The position numbers and the translations under genes are program-made. Below are positions 34,930 to 42,625 of a DNA stretch of 64,000 nucleotides, in pieces (positions within the stretch are counted from its first letter, which is position 1; each line of letters begins with the position of its first letter). Location: NCBI RefSeq assembly GCF_013402875.1, contig NZ_CP058579.1, forward strand, positions 930,001 to 994,000, in the 5' to 3' direction. The notes below the pieces were generated by a model that did not search any database, was not told where the DNA came from, and worked only from the letters and a program-made list of their open reading frames with translations. Source of the stretch: Halorarum salinum. GTDB lineage: Archaea; Halobacteriota; Halobacteria; Halobacteriales; Haloferacaceae.

Positions 34930-35113
34930 CTCGCTCTGAAATACAGCACTGCTCATTCTGGCACTTCGTTCCGTATTGCCGGACACGTTGCCACCAGAAT
35001 CACAGACCGTGACCACGCTATGACGGCCCAGATTGCTAAGAGAACGGCTGTCTTGCCACTATCTTCGCTTCGCCGGTAGTGGAGCGGAGTCGTCAACTCG
35101 TCCGGCGGTGCGG

Positions 35114-35123
35114 AACAATTAAG
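35114..35123 (+). promoter_or_regulatory. TATA-like element of the first IclR gene
   Basis: aacaattaag, about 34 bases before ATG 35153. No palindrome was seen near it. Confidence 0.5.
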
Positions 35124-35914: not shown

Positions 35915-36888
35915 TCTGCTTCCGGTAATGCGGAACACACCGACATTGTATCGGGTGTTCGTTAACGGTGGATGGGTAACTGCTCTGTGTGTTAATTCGA
36001 GATCGAGGGCCACAAATCGATAGGCGATATTACAGTAGTATGGTTGTAATGGGGAATGGTCGCCAGTCGTTTCGAGCTTACTCCCAAGAGTATTCCAGCT
36101 ATATGGCACAGTCACATCGTTGTTAATCCATATTGTGGTACTGATATCTCTCAGCCCTCTCCTTCTGTACGTCAGAATGCCTCATCGATCGCCAATCTAT
36201 CGACCCATCATCTCCCCTCTCCCACAAACGGGTATTTCCCCATGGTGTGTCAGATATGCAAGCCCCTGACGTAGGCGAATGCCTACAGCTAGTTCGACAC
36301 AGAACAACGGCACGGAACTGTATCCGGTATTAACAAGCGAGTCCTTTGTTATCCCGAAGAACTCTCAGTGATTATCGGACTCTTGACACGCCGACTCGAT
36401 AAATAGGTGTCATGTGAACCTATGCATCGACTTCATACCGGGTCCTGCATGCATTGTTGAGGGGTGGTTTGATGGTGGTATCGAAAGTGACGCGTTCATC
36501 GACACATCTCCGACGTTGATGGGCCTCGGCGACCGATTGTAGGGCGCGTAGATTTCGGGCGTCCTCGTGTCTCCGACAATCGACTGGTACCGACAAGGCC
36601 TTCCACGACCTGATTACAGGCGTATCTCTGTAATGGGGAACCGTCGGACGAGGTGTACCGTGACTCCTCGCAGGCGAACACGTAGCGCCAGCTAGTGTAT
36701 CGACGAATTCGAGTCAGCGTCGCAGGTGACTTTCTCCATGGTATCTATCTCTGGTCTTACTCCAGTTTGGAGGATGTGGCCCCATACTGGGCGAACACGC
36801 TCGATATCTACGTTTCTCGAACGCTGCCGTGAGCGTCGCGACTGGCACAGAGGTCGTCCAGTAGAGCATGCCGGTCCCCATCCCGTTC
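35915..36888. other. Gene-poor region of about 970 bases
   Basis: No convincing gene. On the plus strand about 36419-36541 encodes a short protein-like stretch (FIPGPACIVEGWF followed by DGGIESDAFIDTSP, then stop) that may be the relic of a lost gene, but it matches no family I know. A perfect hairpin GTAGGC-gaat-GCCTAC lies at 36271-36286; it is not followed by a T-run. The base composition is lower in GC than neighbouring genes. The region looks like decayed sequence between two regulators. Confidence 0.35.
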
Positions 36889-37629
36889 CTACGGCGAGTA
36901 ATCGGATTTGATCTCGATGACGCTCGCCGTTCGCTGCACCTCGGATGCGAGTTCGCCGTGATCGAGGTCGTCGAACTGCTCCGGCGAGAGTTCGATCTCG
37001 ATGGCGGCAGCGTCCGATTCGTCGCCGTAGGCGAGCGCGACTGCCAGGCTACACCGACCGTTCCAACGTTCTCCGCACGCAGTCGCATACCCGCGATCTG
37101 CTATCCCGGACAGCGACGATTCGAGCGTACTGGGATCGGTGATCGTTCGGTCCGTGTACGAGCGGCGAGCCTCGTCTCCAACGCCATCCGCTTCCCGTTC
37201 TGCCTGGATGCTCAGGAGGGCTTTCCCGGCAGCTGTGGTGTGGAGTGGGAGGTGGTCCCCGACGTGAACCGTCGCCGGGACGCTCGGATTCTCACCGCGA
37301 TCGTAGAGGAGGACAGCCTGGTCGTACTCGGAGACGTAGAGACCGACTGGGAGGTCGATCCGACTGGCGAGTTCGTCAATCTCCGTCCGCGCGATGTCGA
37401 ACAGTTCCATCCCCCGCCGAACGGTCTCGCCGATGCTGAGGAACCGAAGTGCGAGTCGATAGGTCCCGTCCGTGTTGACGACGAACCCGTTCTCCGCTAA
37501 CGTACTCAGGTGATGATACACTGTGCTTCGGGGGAGGCCGGTTCGCGCTGCCAGCGCGCTTGGCGTGCACGGACCGTTCGCGTCGAGTCCGTCGATGATC
37601 TCGACCGTCTTTTCGAGCGTTTTCACCAT
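36889..37629 (-). CDS. IclR family transcriptional regulator (second copy)
   Basis: 246 residues from ATG 37629 (MVKTLEKTVE). The helix-turn-helix is at about 20-47 (ALAARTGLPRSTVYHHL); the IclR effector domain follows with LHTTAAGKALLSI and DRGYATACGERWNGRCSLAVA. The longer frame to 37668 begins inside a palindrome and is unlikely. It is divergent from the RraA gene. A near-palindrome lies directly upstream of its TATA element and a perfect copy upstream of the RraA promoter, suggesting self-control and control of the neighbour. Confidence 0.92.
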   Translation of the reverse strand: MVKTLEKTVEIIDGLDANGPCTPSALAARTGLPRSTVYHHLSTLAENGFVVNTDGTYRLALRFLSIGETVRRGMELFDIARTEIDELASRIDLPVGLYVSEYDQAVLLYDRGENPSVPATVHVGDHLPLHTTAAGKALLSIQAEREADGVGDEARRSYTDRTITDPSTLESSLSGIADRGYATACGERWNGRCSLAVALAYGDESDAAAIEIELSPEQFDDLDHGELASEVQRTASVIEIKSDYSP

Positions 37630-37651: not shown

Positions 37652-37659
37652 GCATAAAT
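37652..37659 (-). promoter_or_regulatory. TATA-like element of the second IclR gene
   Basis: Plus-strand gcataaat; centre about 27 bases from ATG 37629, which fixes the leaderless start. Confidence 0.6.
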
Positions 37660-37661
37660 CT

Positions 37662-37678
37662 GTTTCATGGCGTGAAAC
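37662..37678. promoter_or_regulatory. Candidate IclR operator 1
   Basis: GTTTCAT-ggc-GTGAAAC, a 17-base near-palindrome with one mismatch in the 7-base arms. It sits just upstream of the IclR TATA element, in the position of a BRE, so binding there would block transcription of the regulator gene. Assigning IclR as the binder is inference. Confidence 0.55.
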
Positions 37679-37799
37679 GGACGGCGTTATCGCTGATTCG
37701 TCACGCAGCTAAAATCGGCCGCTGTCACCGCTCTATCGTTCGGATCCTCTTCCGCTGTCCCCCTTCCCGGTGTCGTTCACGGTTATTGTGGCAATTATC

Positions 37800-37816
37800 G
37801 TTTCACCACGTGAAAC
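37800..37816. promoter_or_regulatory. Candidate IclR operator 2
   Basis: GTTTCAC-cac-GTGAAAC, a 17-base palindrome with perfect 7-base arms, 122 bases from operator 1 start to start. It lies about 26-42 bases upstream of the RraA TATA element, a position that would suit activation or looping with operator 1. Confidence 0.6.
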
Positions 37817-37841
37817 GGCTAGGCGTTGGTCCTACCGGTCC

Positions 37842-37848
37842 AATTAAG
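37842..37848 (+). promoter_or_regulatory. TATA-like element of the RraA-family gene
   Basis: aattaag, about 32 bases upstream of ATG 37878. Confidence 0.55.
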
Positions 37849-37877
37849 TCCGGTCGTGGACACTCGAAGTCGTACGC

Positions 37878-38552
37878 ATGCACAGAGTGATCTCGGAGAT
37901 CGACCGCCCACCAGCCGACCTTGTCGCCGCCTTCGACGGGATTCCAACGCCGATCCTGTCGGACGTGACGTCCAAGTACGAGAACACGATGGCCAGCGAA
38001 ATCAAGCCCGTCTACGACGAGGCGTCGATGGCGGGGACGGCGTTCACCGTCAAGACCTATCCCGGGGACAATCTGATGGTGCACAAGGCGCTGACGCTCG
38101 CCGAACCGGGCGACGTCCTCGTCGTCGACGCGAACGCGTACGAGGAAGCAGGACTCGTCGGCGAACTGCTCTCGACGTCGTGTCAGGTACACGGGCTCCA
38201 CGGGACAGTCATCGATGGGGCCGTTCGCGACGTGAAGGAGATCGAGGAACTCGACTATCCCGTGTACGCGCGTGCCGTCAGCCCCAAAGGCTCCTACAAG
38301 GCACACCCCGGGTCGATCAACGTCCCAGTCTCCTGTGGCGAACTCGTCGTCGAGCCGGGCGATATCGTCGTGGGAGACGAGCACGGCGTCGCTATCGTCA
38401 AGCCTGACCACGCTGAGTCCGTCCTCGAGGACGCACGCGACAAACTGGACTCCGAAGACGCTACGCTCGAACGGATCCAGGACGGCGAGTACATCTACGA
38501 CATCGCAAACTTCGACGAGCAGTACGACGATCTCGTCATCCAGGAGCAGTAA
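37878..38552 (+). CDS. RraA family aldolase / oxaloacetate decarboxylase-like protein
   Basis: 224 residues. The family metal-binding segment GTVIDGAVRDVKEI follows GELLSTSCQ, and GDIVVGDEHGVAIV is the closing motif. Members with these residues act as 4-hydroxy-4-methyl-2-oxoglutarate/4-carboxy-4-hydroxy-2-oxoadipate aldolases or oxaloacetate decarboxylases, or as regulators of RNase E in bacteria; an archaeon lacks that partner, so an aldolase is likely. The gene is downstream of an IclR-operator-like palindrome and upstream of a 2-hydroxyacid dehydrogenase on the same strand, about 200 bases away. Confidence 0.87.
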   Translation: MHRVISEIDRPPADLVAAFDGIPTPILSDVTSKYENTMASEIKPVYDEASMAGTAFTVKTYPGDNLMVHKALTLAEPGDVLVVDANAYEEAGLVGELLSTSCQVHGLHGTVIDGAVRDVKEIEELDYPVYARAVSPKGSYKAHPGSINVPVSCGELVVEPGDIVVGDEHGVAIVKPDHAESVLEDARDKLDSEDATLERIQDGEYIYDIANFDEQYDDLVIQEQ

Positions 38553-38754: not shown

Positions 38755-39765
38755 ATGTGGATGACGAACAAGCCAACGGTATACGTAACCCGGCGTATCC
38801 CTTCTGCCGGGCTCGAGCAGCTCGAGCGGGCCTGTACTGTGGAGGTGTGGCCCGAGAAGACCCCGCCATCGAAGGACCACTTCGTCGAGCGACTATCAGC
38901 CCTGTCGGCTGACGGACTCGTCTGCCTGCTCACCGACGACGTGGATGCGGAGGTAATGGACGCGTCACCCGACCTCCGCGTTATCAGCACCTATTCGGTC
39001 GGATACGATCACGTCGACCTCGATGCCGCCGCGGCACGTGACATCGCCGTCGGGCACACGCCGGGAGTCCTCACCGACACGACCGCCGACTTCGCGTGGT
39101 CGCTCCTGGCGACCTGTGCACGGCGGACCGTCGAGGGGCAGGCGTACGTTCGCGATGGCGAGTGGGAGACGTGGCAACCGACGTTGCTCACCGGGCAGGA
39201 CATCCACGGCTCGACGCTCGGCCTCGTCGGCCTGGGTAACATCGGGACCGGCGTCGCGAAACGGGCAGCGGGGTTCGAGATGAACGTCCTCTACTCGGAC
39301 GTCGAACGCCACGAACGGACGGAGGAGGAACTCGCCGCTGCCGGCGTGGACATCACGTACGTCGACCAAGACGACGTCTTCGAACGGAGCGACTTCGTCA
39401 GTCTCCACGTTCCGTTACTGGAGTCGACCCGGGGGCTAGTCGGGGAAGCGGAGTTGCGTCGCATGAAGGACGACGCCGTTCTCATCAACACGAGCCGCGG
39501 GCCGGTCGTCGACACCGACGCGCTCGAGACCGCGCTCGAACGGGACTGGATCGAACGCGCTGGCCTCGACGTCACTGACCCCGAGCCGCTGCCGGCAGAT
39601 CACTCGATACTCGAGTACGCACCCGAGAAACTCGTGGTGACACCGCATCTGGCGAGCGCGAGCGTACAGACGCGGGACAAGATGGCGGAGATGGCTGCAG
39701 CGAACGCGCTGGCCGGCGTCCGAGGCGAGCCACTCCCGAACTCCGCGCTGGATGATGCTTCCTGA
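38755..39765 (+). CDS. D-isomer-specific 2-hydroxyacid dehydrogenase (glyoxylate/hydroxypyruvate reductase-like)
   Basis: About 336 residues from ATG 38755. The nucleotide fold has GLVGLGNIGTGVAKRA with a complete GxGxxG. The catalytic Arg is in INTSRGPVVD, Glu in LDVTDPEPLP, and His in VTPHLASAS. Closest by motif to glyoxylate/hydroxypyruvate reductases (GyaR/GhrB). It would make D-glycerate from hydroxypyruvate, which the glycerate 2-kinase at 46446-47783 could phosphorylate. ATG 38761 is an alternative start. It is followed by an LDH2-family gene on the same strand. Confidence 0.88.
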   Translation: MWMTNKPTVYVTRRIPSAGLEQLERACTVEVWPEKTPPSKDHFVERLSALSADGLVCLLTDDVDAEVMDASPDLRVISTYSVGYDHVDLDAAAARDIAVGHTPGVLTDTTADFAWSLLATCARRTVEGQAYVRDGEWETWQPTLLTGQDIHGSTLGLVGLGNIGTGVAKRAAGFEMNVLYSDVERHERTEEELAAAGVDITYVDQDDVFERSDFVSLHVPLLESTRGLVGEAELRRMKDDAVLINTSRGPVVDTDALETALERDWIERAGLDVTDPEPLPADHSILEYAPEKLVVTPHLASASVQTRDKMAEMAAANALAGVRGEPLPNSALDDAS

Positions 39766-39856: not shown

Positions 39857-40927
39857 ATGGCTAACACAGCAGACCACATCCCCGTCGACCACGACGACCT
39901 CACGGCGTTCGCACGGGAACTGTCCCGGCAGGCCGGACTCTCCGATGAGCACGCTCGACTCGTCAGTCGAGCACTGGTGCGGGCGAATCTCCGCGGTGTC
40001 GACTCACACGGGGTCGTGCGACTCGAACCGTACATCAGGAGTATCGAACACGGGGGGTTCAATTCCGACCCCGATGTGACGATCACCAGACCGTCTCGCT
40101 CGTCGCTCATCGTCGACGGGGACGACGGCCCCGGACAGGTCGCGACTGTCAAGGCGATGGATGCCGCCGTGGAGGCGGCACGGGAGACGGGTGTCGCCTT
40201 CGCGTCCGTGCGGAACAGCAACCACTTCGGGACGGCCGCCTATTACACCCAGCGCGCTGCGGCCGAAGACTGCATCGGCTTCACCATGTCTAACGTCGGG
40301 CCGAACGTCGCCCCGTTCGGCGGCATCGACCCGTTCTTCGGCACGAACCCGCTGGCGTTCTCGATCCCGACCAATCGCCACTTCTCGATCACGCTCGATA
40401 TGGCGACGAGCGTCGTCGCCAAGGGCAAGATCCACGTCGCCGAGGAGGAGGGCGAGCAGATCCCGGAACGGTGGGCCATGGACGACCAGGGGAATCCCGT
40501 CACCGACCCCGCAGACGTCCACGCACTCCGTCCCGTCGGCGGGCCGAAAGGCTACGGCCTGGGACTCCTCGTCGACGTGTGTTCCGGCGTGCTCTCGGGA
40601 ATGGGGGTCAGCCCCGACGTCGACTCCCTGTATGACGACTACTCGAACCCACAGGGGGTCGGCCACTGGGTCGGCGCCATCGACCCCTCGTTCTACCGGG
40701 AGCTCCCGACGTTCAAGGCCGAGATCGACGACCTCATCACCCGCCTGAAGGCCGTGCGACCGAAGGACGGCGTCGATGAAATCAAGCTCCCGGGCGAGAT
40801 CGAAGCGGAGACGAGAGCCGAACGCGAGCGGAACGGGATCCCGCTCGGTCCCGGCGTCGTCGCGACGCTCACCGAACTCGCAGACCGATACGAAGTGGCG
40901 TTTCCGGCCGACCACTCCGCGGACTAG
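39857..40927 (+). CDS. LDH2 family malate/lactate/ureidoglycolate dehydrogenase-type oxidoreductase
   Basis: 356 residues from ATG 39857 (MANTADHIPV). GVDSHGVVRLEPYI opens the domain, NSNHFGTAAYYTQRAA and PFGGIDPFFGTNPLAFSIP are family hallmarks, and GGPKGYGLGLLVD binds the nicotinamide nucleotide. The family includes malate, sulfolactate and 2,3-diketo-L-gulonate reductases (YiaK). It follows the 2-hydroxyacid dehydrogenase and precedes a convergent paralogue. The GTG at 39824 is a possible but less likely earlier start. Confidence 0.9.
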   Translation: MANTADHIPVDHDDLTAFARELSRQAGLSDEHARLVSRALVRANLRGVDSHGVVRLEPYIRSIEHGGFNSDPDVTITRPSRSSLIVDGDDGPGQVATVKAMDAAVEAARETGVAFASVRNSNHFGTAAYYTQRAAAEDCIGFTMSNVGPNVAPFGGIDPFFGTNPLAFSIPTNRHFSITLDMATSVVAKGKIHVAEEEGEQIPERWAMDDQGNPVTDPADVHALRPVGGPKGYGLGLLVDVCSGVLSGMGVSPDVDSLYDDYSNPQGVGHWVGAIDPSFYRELPTFKAEIDDLITRLKAVRPKDGVDEIKLPGEIEAETRAERERNGIPLGPGVVATLTELADRYEVAFPADHSAD

Positions 40928-41004: not shown

Positions 41005-42078
41005 CTATGGCTGGTCGACTGAGTCGACCAGCAGGTCGGAAGCGTCGAGGTCCACCGTTTCGGAGAGGTCGACGAGCGCCTCCCATTCTGACGGCGAGAA
41101 CGGAATCCCGCGGTCGAGTCGCTGCTGTTTCGTCTCGTGTTCCGGCTCGCCCGGAACGAGTACCTGGTCGAACCCGTCCCGGGTCGGAACGGCCGCCAGC
41201 TCCTCGGCCATCCGATTGAGCCGTTCGGTGTAGCCCGCAAGCGAGGTGTACGCCTCGACGTTGATTGCGCCGACGAAGTGGGCGAGGTCCTGCGGGGTCG
41301 AGAGGTTCTCGTACGAGCTGGGGACGTCCGCCCCGAAGACGGTGTCCATGAGTATCCCACAGAACCCCTCGACCATGAACGCCAGGCCGTACCCTTTCGG
41401 GCCGCCGAGCGGCTGAAGCGCGTAGAAGTCGGACGGGTCGGTCGTCGGTTCGCCGTCGTCGTCGATCGCCCACGTGTCGGGGATGTCGTCGCCGCGCTTC
41501 TCGGCGAGCGCCACCGCCGACTTGGCCTTCACGCTCGTCGCCATATCGAGCGTAACCGGGAAGTGATCCTCCCGGGGGAGCGAAATCGAGATGGGGTTCG
41601 TGCCGAAGTAGGGCTCGGTGCCACCGAACGGGACGACGTTCTGGCCGGCGTGGGTCATACAGATGCCGATACAGCCCGCTTGGGCTGCCTGTCGCGTGAA
41701 GTAGGCGGCCGTCCCGAAGTGCTGGCTGTTCTTCACGCCTACGAATCCGGCACCGGCGTCGTCGGCGATCTGGATCGCTTCGTCCATCGCACGATGTGTC
41801 ACCGACTGCCCCGGTCCGTCGTCGCCATCGACGATGGCGGTGGCGGTTCGCGTCCGGTCGACGGTGACCGTCGGATCGGTGTTCATCCCGCCGCTCCGTA
41901 GCCGGCGCACGTATTCGGGGAGTTTGAACACGCCGTGGGTGTCGATCCCGTGGAGGTCGGCGTCGACGAGGGACTCGGCGACGACCTGGGCATGGCCAGT
42001 GTCGAGTCCCACCTCAGCGAGTGCGTTTCTTGCGTACGTCTCGAGCCGTTCATGGTCCGCTCGGTGTTCGTCAGTCAT
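41005..42078 (-). CDS. LDH2 family oxidoreductase (second copy)
   Basis: 357 residues from ATG 42078 (MTDEHRADHE); the ATG at 42105 adds nine unlike residues. It shares the family hallmarks: GIDTHGVFKLPEYV, NSQHFGTAAYFTRQAA, PFGGTEPYFGTNPISISLP, GGPKGYGLAFMVEG. It converges on the first copy (stops 77 bases apart), so the pair faces inwards. The two proteins are similar in segments but clearly diverged, suggesting different keto or hydroxy acid substrates. Confidence 0.9.
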   Translation of the reverse strand: MTDEHRADHERLETYARNALAEVGLDTGHAQVVAESLVDADLHGIDTHGVFKLPEYVRRLRSGGMNTDPTVTVDRTRTATAIVDGDDGPGQSVTHRAMDEAIQIADDAGAGFVGVKNSQHFGTAAYFTRQAAQAGCIGICMTHAGQNVVPFGGTEPYFGTNPISISLPREDHFPVTLDMATSVKAKSAVALAEKRGDDIPDTWAIDDDGEPTTDPSDFYALQPLGGPKGYGLAFMVEGFCGILMDTVFGADVPSSYENLSTPQDLAHFVGAINVEAYTSLAGYTERLNRMAEELAAVPTRDGFDQVLVPGEPEHETKQQRLDRGIPFSPSEWEALVDLSETVDLDASDLLVDSVDQP

Positions 42079-42625
42079 GGCTGAGTGGCGTGTCCCGGTC
42101 GTCATCTGATGCGCGACCGATGGCAGTCCGATACCCGATCGGGTGCGTGGTCACACGGACTGCTCGTGTGCGCCGCTGGGAACGGCTTGTCGAACGCGTC
42201 CGCTGCACCCCAGGCCGGACCACCTCCTCGACTGCAACACGCGGAACAGGTCGCGTGGACCGCTGCTCGGTCCGGCTCATTCGGTGGCAGTCTGTGAGTG
42301 GTGATCGTCCGGCTGAGCTGTACGGGCGGTCGCCCTCTGTGGACCCGAGGACACTACTTGCGCGTGGTCAGCCATTCCATATAAATTCGGGGGTGCTCAC
42401 AACGTAGGTCCCGACGTTCTCACCGTCGTGTCCGCCGCCCCGCTCTACTACCCGGTCCATGTTCGGCCCACTCCCGTTCGCGAACACACACCGGTTCCCA
42501 GCAACCCGACCGAACGGGACCACGACCGCGACCGTCGCCGTCGAGTTCACCGGGGTCGGAAAGCCGATCACGAGCTGTCTCGGAGAAAGACTTATCCCGG
42601 TTGGTCCTAGTGACCCAATGACGCT
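42079..42625. other. Intergenic region before the TRAP operon
   Basis: About 550 bases. A TATA-like gacttatcc at about 42588-42596 fits the start of the TRAP operon. A minus-strand frame at 42368-42571 (67 residues) has GC-rich third codon positions but no recognised domain; it is listed separately. Nothing else was seen. Confidence 0.4.
42368..42571 (-). CDS. Possible small gene or coding relic (unknown)
   Basis: 67 residues from a GTG. The third codon positions are mostly G or C, as in true genes here, although GC-rich DNA often gives this. The product opens VIGFPTPVNS and ends TPEFIWNG; it is not acidic and matches no family I know. It lies divergent from the TRAP operon and could also be a shadow. 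Confidence 0.2.
   Translation of the reverse strand: MIGFPTPVNSTATVAVVVPFGRVAGNRCVFANGSGPNMDRVVERGGGHDGENVGTYVVSTPEFIWNG

Follow-up and report, generated by a model that had tools for sequence, protein, structure and literature searches.

Two similar 17-bp palindromes lie in the gap between a gene for an IclR-family regulator, here called IclR1, and a divergently transcribed gene for an RraA-like aldolase in a window of Halorarum salinum DNA (the whole stretch analyzed, 64,000 nucleotides). From their motif, pairing, and conservation, it is almost certain that the adjacent IclR1 docks at these palindromes. We think it quite probable that IclR1 binds both sites and represses its own gene, probably also activating that of RraA. 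The locus clearly illustrates, without being unusual, a control layout known from bacteria, fitted onto archaeal promoters. It supplies, for a haloarchaeal regulator, a pair of predicted operators that can be tested and whose spacing follows a defined rule.

The IclR1 gene extends from 36889 to 37629 on the minus strand, with its start codon at 37629 (MVKTLEK...); the gene call is supported by Pfam and by an orthologue in genome G416 that has the same start residue. IclR1 is a member of the IclR family, having a winged helix-turn-helix domain at its N terminus (HTH_IclR, 3.2e-12, 46.5 bits against a cut-off of 22) and the IclR ligand domain at its C terminus (IclR_C, 3e-23, 82.7 bits against a cut-off of 24). 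Following a gap of 248 nt, the RraA-like gene occupies 37878 to 38552 on the plus strand (Pfam RraA-like, 1.5e-48). Its product scored 185.8 bits with NCBIfam model NF006731 for 4-carboxy-4-hydroxy-2-oxoadipate aldolase/oxaloacetate decarboxylase, above the cut-off of 179, and 166.6 with the stricter LigK/PcmE model TIGR02798, below the 304.5 needed there. Since the NF006731 cut-off was passed, the protein was read as an aldolase, and the RNase E inhibitor reading of the name RraA was dropped.

Next in the direction of RraA transcription are genes for a D-2-hydroxyacid dehydrogenase (38755 to 39765, plus strand, Pfam 2-Hacid_dh) and an Ldh2-family dehydrogenase of the malate/L-lactate/ureidoglycolate type (39860 to 40927, plus strand, Pfam Ldh_2). 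No operator of the type found in the IclR1/RraA gap was seen at the dehydrogenase genes downstream of RraA. The D-2-hydroxyacid dehydrogenase gene follows RraA by approximately 200 nt, may have its own promoter, and only possibly belongs to the RraA regulated unit. The Ldh2-family gene at 39860 to 40927 is convergent with a paralogue at 41005 to 42105 on the minus strand, with the RraA gene to one side of the two and a TRAP transporter to the other. Comparison of neighborhoods revealed Ldh2 relatives near RraA also in G416 and in a third genome, G188. In G416 and G188 (L087, L088), ABC sugar-type transporter genes adjoin the RraA/Ldh2 module, and in the window the TRAP transporter does; the transporter beside the module seems to have been exchanged between genomes. 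On the other side of IclR1, between it and a second IclR gene, almost 1 kb (35915 to 36888) is without a convincing gene and by eye has a G+C content below that of its surroundings.

The sequence-only reading had proposed a duplicated palindrome in the IclR1/RraA gap, and both copies were found where it had placed them. Predicted operator site 1, on the IclR side, is GTTTCATGGCGTGAAAC at 37662 to 37678, with 6 of 7 arm pairs complementary. Predicted operator site 2, on the RraA side, is GTTTCACCACGTGAAAC at 37800 to 37816; all seven arm pairs are complementary, in agreement with its description as perfect, and the dyad lengthens to eight pairs with CGTTTCAC/GTGAAACG. Neither site has an assigned strand, and they are separated by 138 bp. 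A scan of the window at up to two motif mismatches yielded no further copy, again as proposed.

Each site has its own place relative to a promoter, the TATA-like and BRE calls having been made by eye and consensus from the sequence alone. The TATA-like element of IclR1, ATTTATGC, lies at 37652 to 37659 on the minus strand, its 5' end 30 nt away from the ATG. Site 1 adjoins this element as the earlier reading held, at a measured 2 nt rather than the 3 bases given, and its GAAAC arm sits at the expected BRE position; the end of the site is 32 nt from the IclR1 start codon, in the window and G416 alike. The TATA-like element of RraA, AATTAAGT, is found at 37842 to 37849 on the plus strand without a purine-rich BRE in front, and site 2 ends 25 nt upstream of it.

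The strict motif GTTTCRYNNNRYGAAAC (class GTTTCAYNNNRTGAAAC) is rare. The 4.26-Mb genome has three copies, two of them in the IclR1/RraA gap, while approximately 0.02 exact-class sites would be expected genome-wide from base composition. When the intergenic region was dinucleotide-shuffled 2000 times, no shuffle matched the similarity of the pair while keeping both members at least 5/7 palindromic. The looser form GTTTC-N7-GAAAC occurs seven times in the genome against approximately two expected by base composition and, taken alone, has little evidential weight; the argument depends on the strict form and on the pairing. On motif evidence, the two palindromes would be the main recognizable sites of IclR1 in the genome. 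In 197 relatives, the exact motif turned up at 11 further sites, spread over 11 genomes, and no IclR gene was seen beside any of them; the motif thus does not define a general regulon.

A search elsewhere in the genome, which had been suggested as a check, returned the third copy at C1:2297148. This copy (L003 1501-1517; C1:2297148-2297164) reads GTTTCACGCGGTGAAAC, with another half-site, GTTTCACCA, directly after it. It lies between a gene for an HTH regulator and a methyltransferase gene, downstream of the former and approximately 53 nt upstream of the latter. As no equivalent was found in G416, its inclusion in the IclR1 circuit was set aside, and the copy is treated as unrelated or unexplained.

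When 392 genomes of the order were searched, one clear IclR1 orthologue emerged, in G416, which belongs to the same family but another genus (45% identity, E = 1e-62). The next-best matches among these genomes were 37 to 38% identical, and a separate contig scan with IclR1 returned distant relatives only, at 35% identity or less. In G416, the IclR gene is likewise divergent from an RraA gene, whose product is 75% identical to that of the window, and in the gap GTTTCGCCACATGAAAC lies toward the IclR gene and GTTTCATCAGGCGAAAC toward RraA. These two are the only copies of GTTTCRYNNNRYGAAAC in the 3.7-Mb G416 genome, and G416 is the one clear orthologue locus to carry the exact motif. Absence of conservation upstream of orthologues had been named as grounds for abandoning the proposal; both sites and their promoter spacing are kept.

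The spacing is equal to the base in the two genomes, with 2 nt between site and TATA-like element for IclR and 25 nt for RraA, and the RraA element AATTAAGT is identical at 8 of 8 positions. Each operator is identical at 14 of 17 positions between window and G416, whereas the flanks are at or near background (7/25 in the 25-nt gap; 7/41 and 9/40 upstream). The distance from site to site is 138 bp in the window but 123 bp in G416. Because the spacing to its own TATA-like element is fixed while the site-to-site distance varies, each of the two sites appears tied to its own promoter. The conservation shows predicted operators of the bacterial IclR type used on archaeal promoters.

A more distant locus was found in G188, which belongs to a different family within the order; there, an RraA protein 75% identical to that of the window is encoded divergently from an IclR protein 32% identical to IclR1. 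GTTTC sites were absent from the G188 gap. The best pair of similar palindromes there consists of GTCCCATAATACGGAAT, placed 34 nt before the IclR start, and ATCCCGTATCGTGGGAA, 71 nt before that of RraA; their positions match those of the other loci and their spacing is 123 bp, as in G416, with a half-site of ATCCC or GTCCC instead of GTTTC. A pair as good arose in 103 of 2000 shuffles (5%) without constraint and in 12 of 40000 when positions were confined to the ones seen at the other loci, a restriction chosen after the sites had been seen. The pair is suggestive of a diverged version of the operators. In the numbering of PMC8222616, position 28 of the recognition helix is Arg in the window and G416 and Lys in G188, and position 33 is His in the window and in G416 and Arg in G188, so that both residues change in step with the half-site.

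Bacterial IclR operators include a group 1 subgroup with the consensus GTTYCRYW3RYGRAAC, termed GTT-11-AAC (Suvorova and Gelfand 2021, PMC8222616). The two window sites and the two G416 sites all have arms matching GTTYCRY and RYGRAAC around a 3-nt center in 17 bp, and, as in the bacterial class, this odd-length palindrome accompanies a regulator that would control itself and its neighbor. Regulators of the family as a rule act on their own gene and on one or two operons next to it (PMC8222616). Conservation of sites upstream of the orthologous regulator and target, a further mark of the class, is seen in G416 and, in apparently diverged form, in G188. The AT-only W3 center is not shared, the centers being GGC and CAC in the window and CAC and CAG in G416; W3 is a consensus preference, and both genomes are G+C rich. 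Unlike the bacterial systems, the promoters here are archaeal (BRE/TATA) with one site per promoter, and the sites are 138 bp (window) or 123 bp (G416) apart rather than in the tandem arrangement of 18 to 22 bp center to center described for bacterial IclR proteins. No haloarchaeal operators were found in the parts of the survey consulted, where archaea receive only passing mention.

The IclR-family proteins XacR, GacR, RhcR, and MscR are activators of sugar catabolism in haloarchaea (PMC11519228). They resemble IclR1 as IclR-family proteins encoded beside catabolic genes, but their sugar pathways differ. A negative element of the xacR promoter covers a WW motif downstream of TATA (PMC6085418), whereas the IclR1 site lies upstream of TATA. 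The best NCBIfam match of IclR1 was the PcaR/PcaU/PobR model (TIGR02431), at 105.8 bits far below the subfamily cut-off of 284.75. PcaR, PcaU, and PobR regulate aromatic-acid pathways, and 4-carboxy-4-hydroxy-2-oxoadipate aldolase also belongs to such a pathway; no ring-cleavage genes were found with Pfam among the scanned neighbors of IclR1 and RraA.

We propose that an IclR1 dimer would occupy each 17-bp GTTTC-N7-GAAAC site. As the GAAAC arm of site 1 is at the BRE position and 2 nt from the TATA-like element, binding there should exclude TFB and TBP, and IclR1 would thereby limit its own synthesis; one class of archaeal repressors overlaps BRE/TATA and blocks TFB and TBP in this manner (PMC6085418). 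Occupation of site 2 would activate RraA, its position and the BRE-poor promoter being as expected of an archaeal activator, since such proteins bind upstream of BRE/TATA (PMC6737238). We infer this direction of control, autorepression with RraA activation, from the site positions considered against those two studies and from the precedent of XacR, GacR, RhcR, and MscR. The sequence-only reading likewise had the regulator's own promoter blocked, and it named no direction of control for the target. When ligand is present, IclR1 would probably switch the aldolase gene on. The nearby 2-hydroxyacid dehydrogenase, two Ldh2-type dehydrogenases, and TRAP transporter suggest a hydroxy- or keto-acid pathway, and the presumed ligand of IclR1 is likely a substrate or intermediate of it.

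In a different circuit, comparable to many bacterial IclR circuits, IclR1 would repress both promoters, with a tetramer or DNA loop bridging the operators until released by ligand. Tetramer binding is possible for IclR proteins, which include repressors (PMC8222616). They can repress from upstream sites too; the center-to-center distance of 123 bp is also common to G416 and G188. The window spacing of 138 bp is, however, approximately 1.4 helical turns longer, so that the phase is not kept between genomes and looping is not favored. What stays constant to the base is instead how far each site lies from its own TATA-like element, and those haloarchaeal IclR regulators that we found cited as tested are activators (PMC11519228). 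We regard repression of both promoters as unlikely compared with autorepression and RraA activation.

Binding of the palindromes by a different regulator, such as an ArsR-like winged-helix protein, is very improbable in our estimation. Palindromes of the same class do occur approximately 41 nt upstream of non-IclR winged-helix genes in two other haloarchaea (L037 1501-1517, L042 1501-1517), in stretches where no IclR gene was noticed. Yet in two genera the gap between IclR1 and RraA is exactly where the pair is placed, at a fixed spacing to the promoters, and as a pair it is found nowhere else; its motif is of a known IclR class, and dyads like it accompany many other IclR genes of haloarchaea. 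Less credible still are chance palindromes or hairpins without regulatory function. Short palindromes are common, and even the looser form was expected about twice per genome; the shuffles and the far lower expectation for the strict class speak against chance, which is already contradicted by the conservation of both positions at the G416 orthologue.

An arrangement of the same kind is present at the neighboring divergent pair of RidA (minus strand) and IclR2 (plus strand), which has a double palindrome, GTTCCGTATTGCCGGAC at 34968 to 34984 and GTCCGGCGGTGCGGAAC at 35100 to 35116, the latter directly before AATTAAG, the TATA-like element of IclR2. The half-site, GTTCCG.../...CGGAAC, differs from that of IclR1. 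By eye, both sites are kept in the congener G002 (L116) as GTTCCGCGATGCCGGAC and GTCCGGCCCTGCGGAAC, beside an IclR2 that is 81% identical, and one copy is kept in L117.

We then surveyed 58 clusters of haloarchaeal IclR genes for dyads with five perfect outer pairs ending 22 to 50 nt before the start codon. In this near-gene zone, lengths of 15, 17, and 19 bp gave 8, 14, and 9 dyads, respectively, compared to approximately 2 in shuffles and 2 to 3 in a far zone of equal width; the counts overlap in part because a single site can score at more than one length, and a rule was used to place the start codons. Enrichment was seen at odd lengths only. From this excess and its position, we argue that an operator adjoining the gene is probably common in the haloarchaeal IclR family, and such odd-length, gene-adjacent dyads would allow operator prediction in a large and mostly unstudied group of regulators. 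A broader proposal, to which we assign an even chance, is that haloarchaeal IclR proteins, thought to be bacterial in origin, kept their odd-length operator code in an archaeal slot: a dyad of 15, 17, or 19 bp immediately upstream of the regulator's own TATA, one arm often doubling as BRE, with a second copy upstream of the target TATA in divergent pairs. If true, the operators and targets of many uncharacterized haloarchaeal regulators would be readable from sequence.

RraA proteins also form a clade at 50 to 55% identity (L052-L062, L090-L107), in which the IclR gene is mostly downstream on the same strand. No GTTTC-N7-GAAAC was found upstream of RraA in this clade, and its RraA promoters have CGATAGTTTAA in common. 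In the regulators' own promoters in this clade, dyads of the TTTCAA/TYGAAA type stand before GGGCTTAAG.
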